Shown: one piece after another, positions 37,669 through 44,466 of the stretch
Layout: each line of letters begins with the position of its first letter
Numbering within the stretch: position 1 is the first letter of the stretch
Source of the DNA: Cohnella algarum
Lineage (GTDB): Bacteria; Bacillota; Bacilli; Paenibacillales; Paenibacillaceae
Reading direction: 5' to 3'
Length of the DNA: 64,000 bases
NCBI RefSeq assembly: GCF_016937515.1
Contig: NZ_JAFHKM010000002.1
Location: 4,273,001-4,337,000 of the forward strand
Program-made: the position numbers and the translations under genes
The notes under the pieces: model-generated
What the model was told of the DNA's origin: nothing
Seen by the model: the letters and a program-made list of their open reading frames with translations, nothing else
The model's database searches: none

Positions 37669-37938
37669 CTACGACACGTTACCATTTACTTGGACAACTG
37701 AGACGCTTGTATTATTATCGACTTCGAATATATAAGAACCTGCACTTAAATTATTGAAATCCCTGGCAGTACTAAAGCCTACATCTGCATTGAATGTCCC
37801 AATACGTGTAGCAAAATTAATGTCGGTTCCTTTATATAATGAAACTTGAACAGAACCGGTTGCATTTGGAGGCAAAAGTAAATTACCATCAGAATCTCTA
37901 ATTGATGAAACTACAAGGTGGAGATCGTAACCTGTCAT
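37669..37938 (-). pseudogene. AT-rich remnant of a probably secreted protein
   Basis: The reading frame carries a beta-rich stretch including HLVVSSIRDSDGNLLLPPN, SVQVSLYKGTDINFATRIG and YIFEVDNNTSVSVVQVNG, ending in a stop at 37669. It looks like the C-terminal part of an extracellular or surface domain. Upstream it runs directly into the inferred left end of the transposon at about 37951, so the N-terminus appears lost. The first in-frame ATG is 37938 and lacks a clear RBS. The composition is much more AT-rich than the neighbouring core genes. The family is not recognised. Confidence 0.5.
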
Positions 37939-37950
37939 CAGCCACTTTAA

Positions 37951-37985
37951 TTGACGGTAGATTCGGAACCGCCAATGACGGTGGC
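37951..37985. repeat. Candidate left terminal inverted repeat of the transposon
   Basis: TTGACGGTAGATTCGG followed by CAATGACGGTGG. Both share the core TGACGGTRG with the right end (41330-41352, opposite orientation). The arrangement fits repeated transposase-binding sites. Confidence 0.55.
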
Positions 37986-38068
37986 TTTTTGCTTTCCTCA
38001 CCGCCGTTTCGGAGACAATTATATTTCGCCTTTGTTTGTCGGCGTAAAAAAACTGCTCCGAAGAGCAG

Positions 38069-38290
38069 TTAGAACAGCGGTCGGACGCGGTACTTGGCAT
38101 GTCGGTGGAGCCAGAACTTCGAATTTCCAAACTTCACGTACCAGTCCGTATCGAGCTCAAGGTTGGATGGCAAGAAGTGCTTTCCTACTTGAATCATCAC
38201 GGCATCACCACAACGTAGCGAGCAAAGCAACTCTTCTCCATCGTACACGTTCCAACGCTCGGTATCTCCATGAAATCGTATCTCATTCAT
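38069..38290 (-). CDS. DUF5348 family small protein, transposon accessory
   Basis: 73 residues from ATG 38290, which lies 9 bases after GAGGG (an upstream ATG at 38299 is also in frame). The pattern WNVYDGEELLCSLRCGDAVM, FLPSNLELDTDWYVKFG and FWLHRHAKYRVRP matches what I know of the DUF5348 domain, found in Firmicutes mobile elements. It starts 12 bp after the ATPase gene and is probably cotranscribed. Function unknown; it could be a regulator or accessory factor of transposition. Confidence 0.75.
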   Translation of the reverse strand: MNEIRFHGDTERWNVYDGEELLCSLRCGDAVMIQVGKHFLPSNLELDTDWYVKFGNSKFWLHRHAKYRVRPLF

Positions 38291-38302
38291 ATTTGTCATC
38301 CC

Positions 38303-39106
38303 TCACTGTTCCTTAAATTCAGCTAGGATCCTCGTCACATGGACGGTATCAATCATTTTGTCTTTTCGCAGCACTGCATCCAGAAGCGCAGCGGTGCAGA
38401 CGTTATTTATCTCTCGGCATATCCCCCGAGCATGCGCGTATATGGCGTCCATCGCTTCTGTCGTAAACACCGGCCCTGTACTTCCGGCAACCTCCAATTG
38501 GTGGGAGATGTAATCGCGGCACTCCTCGAGCGACAAGCCTTCCAAATGAAAACGCACGTTCATCCGCTGTGTAATCGGCTTGAAGATTCTCAGTTGCAAC
38601 GTGGCCTGTAGTTCCGGCTGTCCAATGAGCAGCAGGGCAAGCGGCGAAATCGAGTCCATACGAAAATTCGTCAAAAAGCGTATTTCTTGCAGCATGTCTC
38701 CTGAAAGCAGGTGCGCTTCATCCACGACAATAACGGCGACCTTCTGCTGGTTCTCGTACAAATCCCATACGAGGTGCTGGAATTGCCGTTTGGCTTCGCT
38801 GCGCAGAAACTTGGGCGGCAAGCCGAAGTGGTGGAGGAGTTCACGGTAAAAGTCCCTTGGTTTCAGATTCGCATCCGACAGATAGATAAACCGGTACTTG
38901 TTCGGATCCAGTTGGTCTTTCAAGTAGCGAACGGCTGTCGACTTGCCGCAGCCAATTTCACCGGTGACGCAGCCAATCGAGCGAGTCATCACCATATACT
39001 GCATCCGTGCTACACATTCTTCGAATCGCTTGGAGCGGTGCAGATGCCGTGTTTCAATCTCCCGGGTGAACGGAACGCGCTCCCACCCGAAGAAACCACG
39101 AATCAT
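38303..39106 (-). CDS. ExeA-like AAA ATPase, transposition regulator (TniB/TnsC-like)
   Basis: 267-residue AAA+ ATPase. The N-terminus IRGFFGWERVPFTREIE is typical of ExeA/TniB proteins. Walker A is GEIGCGKST near residues 49-57, Walker B is VAVIVVDEAHLLSGD, and sensor motif LLLIGQPELQ follows. In Mu, Tn7 and Tn552-type elements such an ATPase selects targets and activates the transposase. The start overlaps the transposase stop by 4 bp (ATGA). Size is very close to the Tn552 ATPase (271 residues). Confidence 0.9.
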   Translation of the reverse strand: MIRGFFGWERVPFTREIETRHLHRSKRFEECVARMQYMVMTRSIGCVTGEIGCGKSTAVRYLKDQLDPNKYRFIYLSDANLKPRDFYRELLHHFGLPPKFLRSEAKRQFQHLVWDLYENQQKVAVIVVDEAHLLSGDMLQEIRFLTNFRMDSISPLALLLIGQPELQATLQLRIFKPITQRMNVRFHLEGLSLEECRDYISHQLEVAGSTGPVFTTEAMDAIYAHARGICREINNVCTAALLDAVLRKDKMIDTVHVTRILAEFKEQ

Positions 39107-40485
39107 GAGCGTTTCACCTCTTTCATCGCTCGCGAAAGCGCAGCGCCTTGCGCTTCGCGGGTCTGCCGTTTCTGTTCTTCCACCAATAATTCCACATAGT
39201 TGAGGCCCGTCTTCGGCGGTTGCATGACGGCCTTCGGTTCATCCTGCTTCGGCCGGTTTTTCGGATCGCGGAGCTTCATTGGCTTCGCGTCTTCATAGCG
39301 CTGGCCGTCCTTCCACACCTGGATGACGGACAGGTCGTGCGGATCGAATCGCACCTGAATCTTCGAGCCGGCAAGCTCTGTCTGGACCTCGAATATCGTG
39401 CCCAGCAGCGAGATGCATCCCGTTTTGTCCACTTTGCGGGATTCCTCCAGCAAGAATACTTCTATGAGTTCATGCGGCGGCAACATGCGAATCGGGTGGT
39501 CGTCTTTTTGGTATCGGTCGACTGGGCGCTGCTTAAAGCTGTTGTGGACTTTCTGGTGGTAAGCAATCTCAAGCCACGCCGAGAAGAATCGATTCAAATC
39601 GTTAAGCGTCTGGATCTTCCCTTGTTCAATCAGGTCGTATGCCTCCGGCACAAAGCTCTGGTCGACAAATCGGAAGAACTTTTCTTGCTTCCCGCGTCCC
39701 ATAGGACGTCCGGGGCGAGTATGCTTAAGCTCTGCCCCCAGTCGCCCGCAAATCCGCTCAAAATGGTGTGAAGAATAGATGGCGCCGTTATCGACATAGA
39801 TCATTTCCGGCACTCCGTTCTTTAAAATCGCCTTCTTCAGGCAATCCTCCAGCCGGGCCACACGTTCCTCGAAATAGAACTGGCCATGCACAACGAAGCG
39901 AGAGTAATCGTCAATGAAAATAACCAGATAGGCCATGACCTTCTTGCCGGGCTTGTCCGGATGCGGAAGGTAAAGGGTATGCTGCACATCGCCTTGCCAC
40001 ATGCTATTTCGGTGCGTGGCTTCAAACCGGCGAAAGTGGCTCCACCCCGTATTCAGTAACGCTTTGCGCGTGACGCCGCGGCGGCGAAGCTGCTTGCTAA
40101 GCGTGCTTTCTTTCAGGGTGCCGGGGGCCACGAATGCCGCCAGTTCCAGAATCGCAATAATCTGCCTGACGCTTCGGCCGGGTTGCTCCTGCTTTAAGGC
40201 AATCGCTTTGGCAAGCACATCCTCGGGGATTTCCCTGGTCGTGAGTTTGTCTGCTCGGACGGAGGGCAACAGCGCCTCCCATCCGCCTTCGCGATACGCT
40301 TTTAAATATCGCTCAAGCGTTCGTAGACTAATTCTCCTTCGCTGTCCCGACGACGTTTCATACTCATGGCTTACAATTTCGCGCATCAACGCCATCTGTT
40401 CTCCGGGATCCAATTTGCGGCTAACCAGTGATGCAATTAAGCCATAACGGAAGTTGGCTTCTTGCTGCCTTGCTTGCTCATCCAT
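39103..40485 (-). CDS. DDE transposase, Mu/Tn552-like, rve integrase core
   Basis: 460-residue transposase. The N-terminal helix-turn-helix part includes RRRISLRTLERYLKAYREGG. The integrase core has first Asp in MWQGDVQHTLYLP, second Asp in MIYVDNGAIYSSHH and the catalytic Glu in RPMGRGKQEKFFRFVDQSF. The C-terminal domain is the Mu-type beta barrel region (TIFEVQTELAGSKIQVRFD). RBS GGAGAGGAG precedes ATG 40485. Intact, no frameshift. Length is near the Tn552 transposase (480). Confidence 0.93.
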   Translation of the reverse strand: MDEQARQQEANFRYGLIASLVSRKLDPGEQMALMREIVSHEYETSSGQRRRISLRTLERYLKAYREGGWEALLPSVRADKLTTREIPEDVLAKAIALKQEQPGRSVRQIIAILELAAFVAPGTLKESTLSKQLRRRGVTRKALLNTGWSHFRRFEATHRNSMWQGDVQHTLYLPHPDKPGKKVMAYLVIFIDDYSRFVVHGQFYFEERVARLEDCLKKAILKNGVPEMIYVDNGAIYSSHHFERICGRLGAELKHTRPGRPMGRGKQEKFFRFVDQSFVPEAYDLIEQGKIQTLNDLNRFFSAWLEIAYHQKVHNSFKQRPVDRYQKDDHPIRMLPPHELIEVFLLEESRKVDKTGCISLLGTIFEVQTELAGSKIQVRFDPHDLSVIQVWKDGQRYEDAKPMKLRDPKNRPKQDEPKAVMQPPKTGLNYVELLVEEQKRQTREAQGAALSRAMKEVKRS

Positions 40486-40657
40486 GCTAAATCTCCTCTC
40501 CCTGTGGTCTATGAGAGTATCGCATAGACGCTAGAAGCCAGGGAGGGCGCATATTTTGTGGGATCAGGAGGGCAACTTGCCGTCCAGGCGATTTTTAAAG
40601 CAATTTTGGAGGCGATTTTCGTTTGCCTTGCTCCTTGGCGGTGGATGCTGAAGGGAT

Positions 40658-41260
40658 TTATAAGCGTGATGCTACAGGTAACCTCGCATTTAGAAACGTC
40701 CAATAGCCCCGTCTGGATGCGCCAGCGGGGATGAATCGGGGTAACAGTTTGTCCAGCCAATCCAATGTATCCATTGGCGTTGGGTTCATCATGGTGGGGT
40801 AAAGGTGGAGCATATCCGTGTCGTCCCCCTGGGCTACGAGTTTCCCAGCAACCCATAGTGCTGCATCCGCTGCGCGGCGCAGATGTCTTGCCCACCAGCG
40901 TTTCAACGTACGGCGGCTATAACGCACGGCAGGAGTTGTTGTGCTTTCTGTCGTCTGCCGCCAAGAGAATCCCTTGTGCTTGCGCTTTAATGCCGCTTCT
41001 CGCACCCAAGTCGCATACCGGGCCCATGGAATCAGGAACTCCGGCAGGAGGGAGATTGTTATTCTACAGGTAGGACAATATCGACGGTAGATCGGGATCT
41101 GGATGACCTCATGCTTCGTCACAATTCCTCGCCAATAACGACCGTGTTTATGGAGAAGCCGACCGCAGTTTTCACAGCAGAGCTGGACGTCAGGAGATTG
41201 ATTTCCGAATGTGCGTAAATAAGCCTTGCAAGAAAGGCCGAAATAAAGTATTTTTGACAT
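40658..41260 (-). CDS. DUF6431 zinc-ribbon protein, transposon-encoded
   Basis: About 200 residues. An N-terminal zinc-ribbon has CCENCGRLLHKHGRYWRGIV and RRYCPTCRITISLLPEFLIP, giving two Cys pairs. The rest is helical and basic (REAALKRKHKGFSWRQTTES, RRTLKRWWARHLRRAAD) and could bind DNA. It lies 172 bp upstream of the transposase, on the same strand, as the first gene of the element. The start is uncertain: ATG 41260 is chosen, but the frame is open to 41326, inside the terminal repeat. Comparison with TniQ/TnsD-type targeting proteins is inference only. Confidence 0.7.
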   Translation of the reverse strand: MSKILYFGLSCKAYLRTFGNQSPDVQLCCENCGRLLHKHGRYWRGIVTKHEVIQIPIYRRYCPTCRITISLLPEFLIPWARYATWVREAALKRKHKGFSWRQTTESTTTPAVRYSRRTLKRWWARHLRRAADAALWVAGKLVAQGDDTDMLHLYPTMMNPTPMDTLDWLDKLLPRFIPAGASRRGYWTFLNARLPVASRL

Positions 41261-41320
41261 GATGAAGTGAATGCTCCCGGGGATCCTCGCCAAAGGTTCG
41301 GGAGCATTTTCCTTTTTAAT

Positions 41321-41372
41321 CGACAATAGCCTAATCCACCGTCATTGTACAGAAGGGATTAGGCTATTGTCG
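41321..41372. repeat. Perfect 17-bp inverted repeat across the right end of the transposon
   Basis: CGACAATAGCCTAATCC at 41321-41337 and its exact reverse complement at 41356-41372, separated by 18 bases. The inner arm overlaps the terminal repeat of the transposon; the outer arm lies in flanking DNA and covers the stop codon region of the next minus-strand ORF. Confidence 0.85.
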
Positions 41373-41619
41373 GCTGTTTATTCGGTTTGGCTCCGCCACA
41401 CCGAATGGCGAATTCATGCCTTTTTCCCGCCATAAAGTCAGGCGGCGAACAGTAACCACTGGGGACGTCGAAACACCTTGAAGTTCCAAATCTTTCAATA
41501 GTAATAGTCCATGTAAAATCAGGATCATCACAGGCTGCTGATGCAGATTCTGAGTAGACAGGAAAAATACTTAAAAACATTGCAAATGCAGCAAACAACA
41601 TTAAAAACTTCTTTTTCAT
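41359..41619 (-). CDS. Small secreted cysteine-containing protein, possibly 3'-truncated
   Basis: 86 residues from ATG 41619, which follows the strong RBS GGAGGAGG. An N-terminal signal peptide is clear (KKKFLMLFAAFAMFLSIFPV, then SESASA before ACDD). The mature part of about 60 residues has four cysteines (ACDD, SRCFD, GYCSP, IRCGG), suggesting an extracellular disulfide-stabilised peptide. The final codons lie inside the outer arm of a perfect inverted repeat at the transposon edge, so the natural C-terminus may be lost. No family recognised. The RBS and first part are AT-rich. Confidence 0.6.
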   Translation of the reverse strand: MKKKFLMLFAAFAMFLSIFPVYSESASAACDDPDFTWTITIERFGTSRCFDVPSGYCSPPDFMAGKRHEFAIRCGGAKPNKQPTIA

Positions 41620-42242: not shown

Positions 42243-43412
42243 TTAATGTGATCGTCGCGCTTCAAGTGCAGGCAAACGAAGCTTATTGGCCGTCATGTAT
42301 ACCATGGCGATCAAATTCTCGACATTGCGGTAGCCACGCGCTTTGCGCTTGGATGCTTGAACGAGGCCATTGATGCCCTCCAAAAGCCCGTTGGTCATTT
42401 TGCTGTGGAACCAGCGCAAGATGCCTTCCTCGTGCCGCTTGATCGTTCTCGCCAGATCCACCATTGGCGTTAGCTGGGACCGATTCGCCCACCCCATCCA
42501 CTCCCGCAGGTACACATCCGCGAAGATCTGCGGCGTGCTCCAGAAATCCTGCAACGCCAGCTTCAGGCGATAGGCACGACCGGTTTGCAGGTGCGTACCT
42601 TTTAATCGCGTCAACGTTTCCCGCTGCGCCTCCGTCAGGTTGGATTCGTTCTTCAGCCAAATGTACTGGTATGCTTCAGTTCCCTCGTTTGCTTTTGCTC
42701 GGCAATTCGCACATCGTCTACGGCCTCGTTCACCAGCTTCATGACGTGGAATTTATCAAACGTGATCTCGGCTTTCGGGAAGAAGTCCTCAATCCCCCGT
42801 ATAAACGCCGGAGACATGTCACAGCAGACTTCCTCAATCTGCTCCGCGCTCGCGCCTATTGGCAGCCAGCCGTTCCTTGAAGCGACCCAGCGTGTCCATC
42901 CCTTTGCCTTCTGTCGCAAACAGGACGATCATGGTGTCGGCGTCTACAAACAGCGTGATGTATCGGTGGCCGCGGCGGGAAGACGTTTCGTCGATCGCAA
43001 TCCGCTTTACACGCGTCAAATCCAGTTCGGCCATCGCTTTATCCACGTAGTGATGGAAGATGCGCCACATCCGTGTGTCATGCTCGCGCAGTTCGCGTGC
43101 GGCAGCATTGACCGGCATTTCGGCCATCAGCCGCATGGCCCACGCATCAAACTGCAACGTAAAATGCGATTTCACGCGTGCCCAAGGAACCGGCACTTGC
43201 GTGATCTTCTTACAAGCATGACAATCCGTTCTTGGTACGCGTGCATGCATGTACGTTTTCCAGTCCCAGAAGTCGAGATGGCGCCACTTCTTCGTTTCCG
43301 TATCGTGCGCGGTGCACGCCGCACCGCAAATCGGACAAGCGAAGGTCGATCCGCGTTCGAAGTCGATGAACAAGTGCCAGGTGTTTTCCTTGTCATCGAA
43401 TTCCACGTGCAT
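42243..43412 (-). pseudogene. ISL3 family transposase, N-terminally truncated and frameshifted
   Basis: ISL3-type DDE transposase split over three frames. The zinc-finger part is FACPICGAACTAHDTET; then KRIAIDETSSRRGHRYITLF carries the first catalytic Asp, ITFDKFHVMKLVNEAVDDVR the second, and HSKMTNGLLEGINGLVQASK the catalytic Glu region. An extra base near 42859 and a missing base near 42670 break the frame. The 5' end stops at about 43412 (MHVEFDDKENT), where it abuts an oppositely oriented IS4-type gene, and the usual N-terminal residues are absent. The element looks inactive. Confidence 0.88.
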
Positions 43413-44466
43413 TAACTTCGGCCATCTGTTTGGCGCGATCGGCATTCTGGAAGGCTCCCCACTCAAATGGTTCTGCCTGCCCTTGTTCATGAATTTGTAG
43501 GACGGCGTCAAAACCATCTTCGGCTGGGACGCTTCGTCCGAGCAGCGGCAGGATTCCCACGTGGTACAAATGATCGATCAAGCGTTCCACGCCGCCCGTT
43601 CGTTTGGCGGAGCCTTGCTTCTGCTGGATCGTTACTTCCTGTCCATTCCGGCACTGAAGTGTTTGGGTGAAGGCAATCTCTCCGGCGAGAGCTGGATGTA
43701 CATCGTGACCAAGGCAAAGATGAATGTCGTCGCCTATGAGCGCCCCGTCCGCAAAACCGGCCGGGGACGGCCCGCCCAAGCAGGGAAAGATGCTCAAGCT
43801 CGCCGAGTTATTTCACACGCGGGCAACGGAATTTCAACCGGTCAACGTGACGATTTACGGGAAGGAAGAAACGCTCTCTTGCCTGTGCCTGGACTTGCTC
43901 TGGGGACAGGGCCTGTACCAAGGGCTTCGCTTTGTTTTGGTCAAACAAGGCGACCGCCATTCCATCTCGTCAGCACCGACCTGTCCCTGGAAGGGGCGGA
44001 GATCATCACGCTGTACGGGTATCGATTCAAGATCGAGTGCACCTTTCGCGAAATGAAGCAGGTGATCGGCGCATTCGGCTACCGATTCTGGAGCCGCTCT
44101 ATGCCAAAGCTGAAGCGATACTTGCGCAAAGACGAGCCGCATCCGCTGGAGCAGGTGAAGCGCGAAACGGATCGCTTGCGCATTCGGCAAACCCTGCAAG
44201 CGATTGAGGGCTTCGTCATGTGCAGTGTCATTTCGACAGGTATTATCCAATTGATCACCCTGCGGTTTTCCGGACGGACTCCCGCGCTGTTCTTTCGATA
44301 TCTTCGCACGCCTTCCAAAGCGATTGTCTCGGAAGCGACGGTGACGGCCCATTTACGTCATTCGATTTTTCGGCTATTTGCCCAAAACAGGCATCTTTCC
44401 GTAACCCAAATTATTCGTTCCAAGCAAGATTTGTCCGCTGCTGACGCAGATTCATGGGCTTCTTAA
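43413..44466 (+). pseudogene. IS4 family transposase, 5'-truncated with stop and frameshifts
   Basis: The plus-strand frame enters as GHLFGAIGILEGSPLKWF and hits an in-frame TAG at 43498-43500. It resumes with LLLLDRYFLSIPAL (catalytic Asp), shifts frame near 43771 (extra C) for GKMLKLAELFHTRATEFQ, and shifts back near 43964. The IS4 signature Y-(2)-R-(3)-E-(6)-K is complete in YGYRFKIECTFREMK. The N-terminal third is missing at the junction with the ISL3 gene near 43412. It ends about 40 bp from the bdbD stop codon. Confidence 0.88.

Follow-up and report, generated by a model that had tools for sequence, protein, structure and literature searches.

A 64,000-nucleotide stretch of the Cohnella algarum genome (contig NZ_JAFHKM010000002.1, positions 4,273,001 to 4,337,000; hereafter the window) carries a genuine, mobile and cargo-free transposon whose four genes encode DUF6431, a DDE transposase, an AAA+ ATPase and DUF5348. 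The DUF6431 gene lies just upstream of the transposase gene and on the same strand in 90 of 94 related transposases, and DUF5348 is an optional component of this transposon group. Judging mainly from sequence comparisons, we give an even chance to the reading that the element is an autonomous Tn552-related transposon in which DUF6431 would serve as a dedicated DNA-binding partner, acting at the element's own left end or promoter. An earlier note on the window, made from the letters alone, had regarded the roles of DUF6431 and DUF5348 in transposition as undescribed; we likewise found no account of them in the open-access papers searched, subscription papers and ISfinder lying outside the search.

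The element, its genes and its copies

The four genes are intact and co-oriented on the minus strand, as the earlier note had stated, and each was confirmed by Pfam. The transposase (39103..40485, 460 aa) matches rve (5e-15) and Mu-transpos_C (3.4e-9), and the residues that we take to form its DDE motif (D166, D232 and E268) are kept in 44 of 44 aligned relatives; its three sequence matches in the PDB at E <= 0.001 are all TnsB chains (E about 6e-10). The ExeA/TniB/MuB-like ATPase (38303..39106, 267 aa) matches AAA_22 (2.7e-27), a phage DNA transposition protein (3.4e-22) and, weakly, TniB, with presumed Walker A and Walker B motifs starting at residues 49 and 125, respectively. DUF5348 (38069..38299, 76 aa; PF17295, 1.4e-9, 38.2 bits against a cut-off of 22.8) is predicted to be a Tudor/SH3-like small beta barrel. 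A terminator-like hairpin with a T run lies at the end of its gene (38051..38070, minus strand), and by itself is not significant (4 such sites against 4.1 expected). Pfam detected no resolvase among the four genes between the element ends, and none of the four encodes a TnsA-like second-strand cutter.

A protein search of the host genome revealed 16 near-identical copies, 13 with a full-length transposase match and three broken. Aligning the 16 loci, a check that the earlier note had proposed, placed the element at 37933..41451 on the minus strand (3,519 bp, TGT...ACA termini); the interval previously given, 37951 to 41352, belongs to a real element and lies inside these borders. The borders are common to all copies, some of which have small indels or an insertion, and the host genome contains left and right ends in equal number, 16 of each, with no solo ends. 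Both ends are partly conserved in relatives (13 left and 8 right ends) whose DNA is elsewhere only ~66-75% identical. A perfect 6-bp target-site duplication (TSD) flanks 8 of the 16 copies (GGTTAC, GCTAAC, CCAGAT, CCATAT, GGATTG, TCTACG, ATATAA and CCCGTT). In the window copy it is GGTTAC, present as the identical 6-mer GTAACC of the plus strand on both sides of the element (left, 41452..41457; right, 37927..37932). Two of the copies in which no TSD was found (L016 and L018) share an insertion, presumably IS256-like, at the same position within DUF5348; the element may have transposed once DUF5348 was already disrupted, or recombination may have passed the insertion between copies.

Insertion seems to be untargeted: no shared motif is evident by eye among the eight duplicated target sites, and the joined flanks are open-reading across the whole 394 bp at five of them.

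The host genome harbors a second DUF6431 transposon family (L027-L030; ~3.0 kb, TGTTGCC...GTAACA), which lacks DUF5348, also has DUF6431 as its first gene and encodes a transposase ~36% identical to that of the window element. By eye, all four of the copies examined have a TSD of 6-7 bp. Copies of this family lie on host contig C2 at about 0.684, 1.596, 3.085, 3.920 and 5.746 Mb, three of the five being within about 6 kb of a window-element copy; this proximity may reflect islands in which insertions are tolerated.

Linkage of DUF6431 and DUF5348 to the transposase

Among 249 class-level genomes, 33 exceeded the cut-off in the PF20020 (DUF6431) search and 24 in the PF17295 search (controls, 0 of 14 in both), and 39 were found at 1e-20 in the transposase search; among 299 phylum-level genomes, again including the host, 70 exceeded the PF20020 cut-off. 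For each genome we inspected roughly one to a few loci, a part of all matches. The linkage counts refer to transposase frames scoring over 300 bits (n = 94); they include the repeated host copies, and the loci were partly chosen by their DUF6431 matches. Outside the host genome, 71 of 75 transposases have DUF6431 upstream, 62 have the ATPase and 24 have DUF5348. Altogether, the ATPase lies downstream in 81 of 94, and 11 of the 13 cases without it are cut by the end of the stretch. Of the 81 loci that have an ATPase, 39 also have DUF5348 (in genomes other than the host's, 24 of 62), and a few of the other 42 are cut or interrupted (e.g., L139, L160 and L168). The suspected linkage to the transposase thus holds for DUF6431, and DUF5348 is optional.

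The four transposases lacking DUF6431 are L138, with what we take to be an IS21-like element directly upstream; L153, a fragment; L164, whose contig starts 355 bp before the transposase frame; and L155, on a Mycobacterium riyadhense plasmid, with another transposase-like frame upstream. When loci were sampled from the transposase side, DUF6431 was upstream at 15 of 17 (L170 has it as a fragment 1.9 kb away), and the two stretches lacking it start close to the transposase. In a second such set, partly picked because DUF6431 had gone undetected, it was present at 13 of 20 loci; the other seven were L138, the fragments L152 and L153, and L142-L145, which have what we take to be a resolvase-like gene upstream in three and a recombinase-like frame downstream in one.

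The pairing occurs in Bacillota and Pseudomonadota. Four plasmids of Burkholderiales and Acidithiobacillus exhibit the same order of DUF6431, DDE transposase, ATPase and a small gene, which in Pandoraea does not resemble DUF5348. The Pandoraea DUF6431 is annotated only as hypothetical, yet scores 27.7 bits on PF20020, over the cut-off, and the Acidithiobacillus ATPase, missing from the gene table, was found by profile.

In the reverse direction, a transposase lies downstream of 107 of 123 DUF6431 frames. The 16 frames without one include truncated pieces, an ISL3-type transposase caught by the profile (L096), the internally deleted L190 and intact solitary genes. At L190 (1453-2226), DUF5348 follows a single frame in which an apparent internal deletion has fused the start of DUF6431 to the end of the ATPase. 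We also read ten wider stretches (L218-L227), including four chosen because no transposase had been seen earlier; five contain the transposase and ATPase, and five DUF6431 alone. Two of these five have only short DUF6431-like frames (L220 and L221). The short solitary genes (L180/L220 and L188/L221, frames of 127-137 aa) belong to two Bacillota genomes, have similar neighborhoods with a gene that we take to be Fic-like, and are possibly domesticated regulators. Solitary genes indicate that DUF6431 can be retained where the transposase is missing, whether as a remnant or in some other role. Three Paenibacillus records (L173, L174 and L175) share a near-identical stretch in which a close relative is represented by its left 1.1 kb alone, DUF6431 included.

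That DUF6431 and DUF5348 are mere passenger genes is very improbable. The presence of DUF5348 at 39 of 81 loci and the insertion shared by L016 and L018 would suit such a role, but DUF6431 comes first in the gene order and accompanies nearly every transposase, so that this explanation could fit DUF5348 at most.

DUF6431 as a DNA-binding protein

The DUF6431 protein (40658..41260, minus strand, 200 aa) matches PF20020 (1.2e-9, 38.6 bits against a cut-off of 26.6), its only profile match at E 0.1, and its homologues cover 100% of its length. The assignment (Pfam, AlphaFold2 (AF2) and VIA) predicts a zinc ribbon (residues about 25-75) followed by a helix-turn-helix (about 82-132) and a helical tail; the AF2 model has a predicted local distance difference test score (pLDDT) of 88.4 and a predicted template modelling score (pTM) of 0.60. 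A weak and inconsistent relation to the DNA-binding head of ISL3 transposases, in which a zinc ribbon also precedes the helix-turn-helix, is suggested by the L096 head, which scores 27.3 bits on PF20020, and by comparison of DUF6431 profile A1 with the ISL3 head (hhalign probability 70%, E 4.2e-5). DUF6431 differs from these transposases in being a separate protein without a DDE domain. A broken ISL3-family transposase, spread over several reading frames at 42243-43517, adjoins the element in the window and is the only PF14690 match of the host genome; beside it, 43393-44466 contains fragments resembling another transposase gene, presumably IS4-like.

The earlier note had suggested that DUF6431 is a target selector analogous to TniQ/TnsD, which the results do not bear out in that form: the hhalign probability against TniQ is 1.1%, TniQ is absent from the fold matches listed for DUF6431 and from the 25 families listed of the 53 that match 113 DUF6431 members, and the target sites have no evident sequence in common. 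A rather unlikely variant is that DUF6431 does the job of TniQ without being related to it, marking or capping the target-bound ATPase filament and licensing insertion without strong sequence preference, as a non-TniQ adaptor for a TnsC-like ATPase. The profile search found no TniQ match in the host genome, the predicted zinc ribbon and helix-turn-helix would suit DNA binding, and the association with the transposase-ATPase pair is comparable with the 73 to 97% reported for tnsD/tniQ in Tn7-like clades by PMC8649781. According to PMC11406308, TniQ is near-universal in Tn7-like elements, TnsE is the only known non-TniQ selector family, and Tn5469 is a cargo-free, apparently untargeted case. Beyond the lack of similarity to TniQ, the upstream position of the DUF6431 gene and the absence of a visible target preference speak against an adaptor, as do the recombinase-bearing Tn552-like relatives, which have neither DUF6431 nor an annotated TniQ nearby in the records read.

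Subterminal sites and the left-end control region

The motif TGACGGTRGATTMGG, put forward earlier as a candidate terminal repeat, does recur once per end, but it is subterminal, starting 108 nt in from the left terminus and 20 nt in from the right. Together with its neighbors it makes up five TGRCGG sites that all point inward, three left and two right, a number reached by 0 of 20,000 mononucleotide shuffles for a motif picked after inspection. On the left (minus strand) are L1 (41427..41432, TGGCGG), in a region alignable in relatives, L2 (41393..41398, TGGCGG) and the conserved L3 (41339..41344, TGACGG); on the right (plus strand) are R1 (37952..37957, TGACGG), conserved in the 8 aligned right ends, one with one base changed, and the mostly conserved R2 (37976..37981, TGACGG). 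L3 and R1 lie within the TGACGGTRGATTMGG motif.

A palindrome with 17-bp perfect arms and an 18-nt loop occupies the inner edge of the left end (41321..41372, minus strand; element nucleotides 80-131) and was matched by 0 of 100 shuffles. Its loop contains L3 and a TACAAT hexamer, which forms part of a promoter-like site (41344..41373, minus strand; CCGACA, 18 nt, TACAAT). The site by itself is not significant (1 found against 2.8 expected from shuffles), and the TACAAT-like hexamer is largely conserved among aligned relatives. The palindrome is kept in 13 aligned elements, most stem letters being near-invariant with scant compensation, and three further lineages (L135, L093/L099 and L081) have inverted repeats of unrelated sequence in a comparable position, with a weak one in L086. 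The palindrome could act at the DNA level as an operator or, at the RNA level, as a structure confined to transcripts that enter from outside, a device used by other insertion sequences.

Closer to the gene, a second hairpin (41270..41308, minus strand) is preceded by an AAGGA motif resembling a ribosome-binding site and followed by the start codon of DUF6431. It forms in 11 of 17 folded leaders, eight with z from -2.2 to -4.8 and three (L168, L174 and L175) with z from -2.1 to -4.3, and its stems are of unrelated sequence in L170, L165/L169 and L093/L099; RNAalifold retained only a 4-pair apical stem. A 62-aa frame (41119-41307, minus strand) begins with an ATG right after AAGGA and overlaps the DUF6431 start; this ATG is not found in all relatives.

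Proposed mechanism

In the mechanism that we favor, the transposase would bind the subterminal repeats and link the ends to the target; with no TnsA-like protein among the four genes to cut the second strand, strand transfer would be replicative. TnsC, TniB and MuB load on target DNA and recruit their transposases, as established for those families, and the ATPase of this element may act likewise with little or no site choice. DUF6431 would bind the palindrome overlapping the promoter-like site and L3, where its own gene starts, and so make expression, and possibly synapsis, depend on whether the end is occupied; the leader hairpins may further limit expression or block outside transcripts. 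The specific step of binding in cis at the element's own left end we hold at somewhat below an even chance. The proposal as a whole draws on the common ends and TSDs of the copies and the DUF6431-first order of both host families, on the near-constant pairing of DUF6431 with the transposase, on the absence of a TniQ match from the host genome, on the predicted fold and ISL3-head scores, on the conserved palindrome and its unrelated counterparts in other lineages, and on the open flanks and dissimilar sequences of the target sites.

Several observations weigh against it. In three cases (L218, L219 and L226), a full-size, intact DUF6431 gene stands alone, no related transposase being found in the 9 kb examined. 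With the larger profile A2, the probability for the ISL3 head is only 11%, and the ISL3 head encoded in the window scores 16.3 bits, below the PF20020 cut-off. The palindrome shows little covariation, since just 2 pairs differ on both sides, a number that 53 of 500 shuffles also attain. In L027, of the second family with its short left end, the best palindrome is equaled by 92 of 100 shuffles and is not significant, so that a palindrome is not a universal DUF6431 site. The second hairpin is absent from five of the 17 leaders (L161, L163, L167, L171 and L027), and that of L135 is no better than in shuffles. Finally, as to the presumed replicative transposition, the absence of a TSD at 8 of the 16 copies and of any exchange of flanking 6-mers between two copies, as judged by eye, fits adjacent deletions but also decay.

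Some of the same evidence bears on the improbable alternative that DUF6431 does no more than repress transcription of the operon and stays outside the transposition complex. The palindrome over a promoter-like site directly upstream of the DUF6431 gene and the solitary genes (L218-L221 and L226) would suit a repressor; the lack of a significant palindrome in L027 would not, and in our judgement the presence of DUF6431 in nearly every related element of two phyla is more than expected of a dispensable regulator.

Relation to known systems

The earlier description of a compact Mu/Tn552-type transposon is supported at the level of the TnsB/TniA type: the element has a DDE transposase with rve and Mu C-terminal domains, an AAA+ partner gene and TGT...ACA ends with several subterminal repeats. 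Like Tn552-like elements with a resolvase, it has the transposase and ATPase genes in the same order, and Tn552 and others carry arrays of about 20-bp subterminal repeats according to PMC8649781. Its TSD also agrees with that of Tn552 (6-7 bp), as does that of the second family. Unlike those elements, it has no resolvase and no cargo, and DUF6431 occupies the upstream slot. In a tree of 45 transposases that does not contain Tn552 itself, the nine with an adjacent site-specific recombinase-like gene cluster together on a long branch with 100/100 support; all 35 members of the other group (the DUF6431 type and L155, whose long, uncertain branch joins the outgroup) fall outside this cluster. Six plasmid records of the recombinase group have an annotated recombinase beside the transposase in five cases and an integrase-domain gene in one, from Scytonema, and the DUF6431 profile has no match in the Tn552-like relatives L142-L145, L159 and L228-L232. 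The upstream slot is thus usually taken by a recombinase in one group and by DUF6431 in the other.

With Tn7-like elements and Tn5053 (TnsB-TnsC-TniQ), the window element shares the TnsB-like transposase, the ATPase partner and the end repeats; it differs in lacking TniQ. Also among the closest known systems is 3nrl (RUMGNA_01417 of Ruminococcus gnavus).

The element might instead be filed as an IS481-family insertion sequence with accessory genes, a question of classification that is compatible with the other readings and that we think unlikely to be settled in this way. The transposase matches NCBIfam IS481 (E 5.1e-52, 177.2 bits), one Geobacillus relative is annotated as IS481, and the TGT ends and 6-bp TSD agree with the description of IS481 and related elements in PMC10045372, by which most IS481 members produce a 6-bp TSD. 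The match, however, lies below the curated cut-off of 224 bits; the three or four genes including an ATPase set the element apart from the family, and the Mu-transpos_C domain, AAA+ partner, subterminal repeats and TnsB matches in the PDB fit TniA/TnsB elements.

Implications

TniQ adaptors set the insertion site of Tn7-like and CRISPR-associated transposons. Transposons of a widespread kind that retain the transposase and ATPase but almost invariably pair them with an unrelated DNA-binding-like protein would offer a good way to learn which parts such a system requires. A bolder proposal, somewhat unlikely and a shade more so than an adaptor role by itself, is that DUF6431 marks out a branch of TnsB/TnsC-type transposons, spanning several phyla and so far unrecognised, whose zinc-ribbon/helix-turn-helix adaptor, unrelated to TniQ, would activate the ATPase-transposase pair for untargeted insertion, as a minimal three-protein machine. 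Because the elements are small (3.0 and 3.5 kb in the two host families), cargo-free and present in many near-identical copies, simple laboratory assays are feasible, and the answer would also hint at what DUF6431 and DUF5348, two Pfam families without an assigned function, do.

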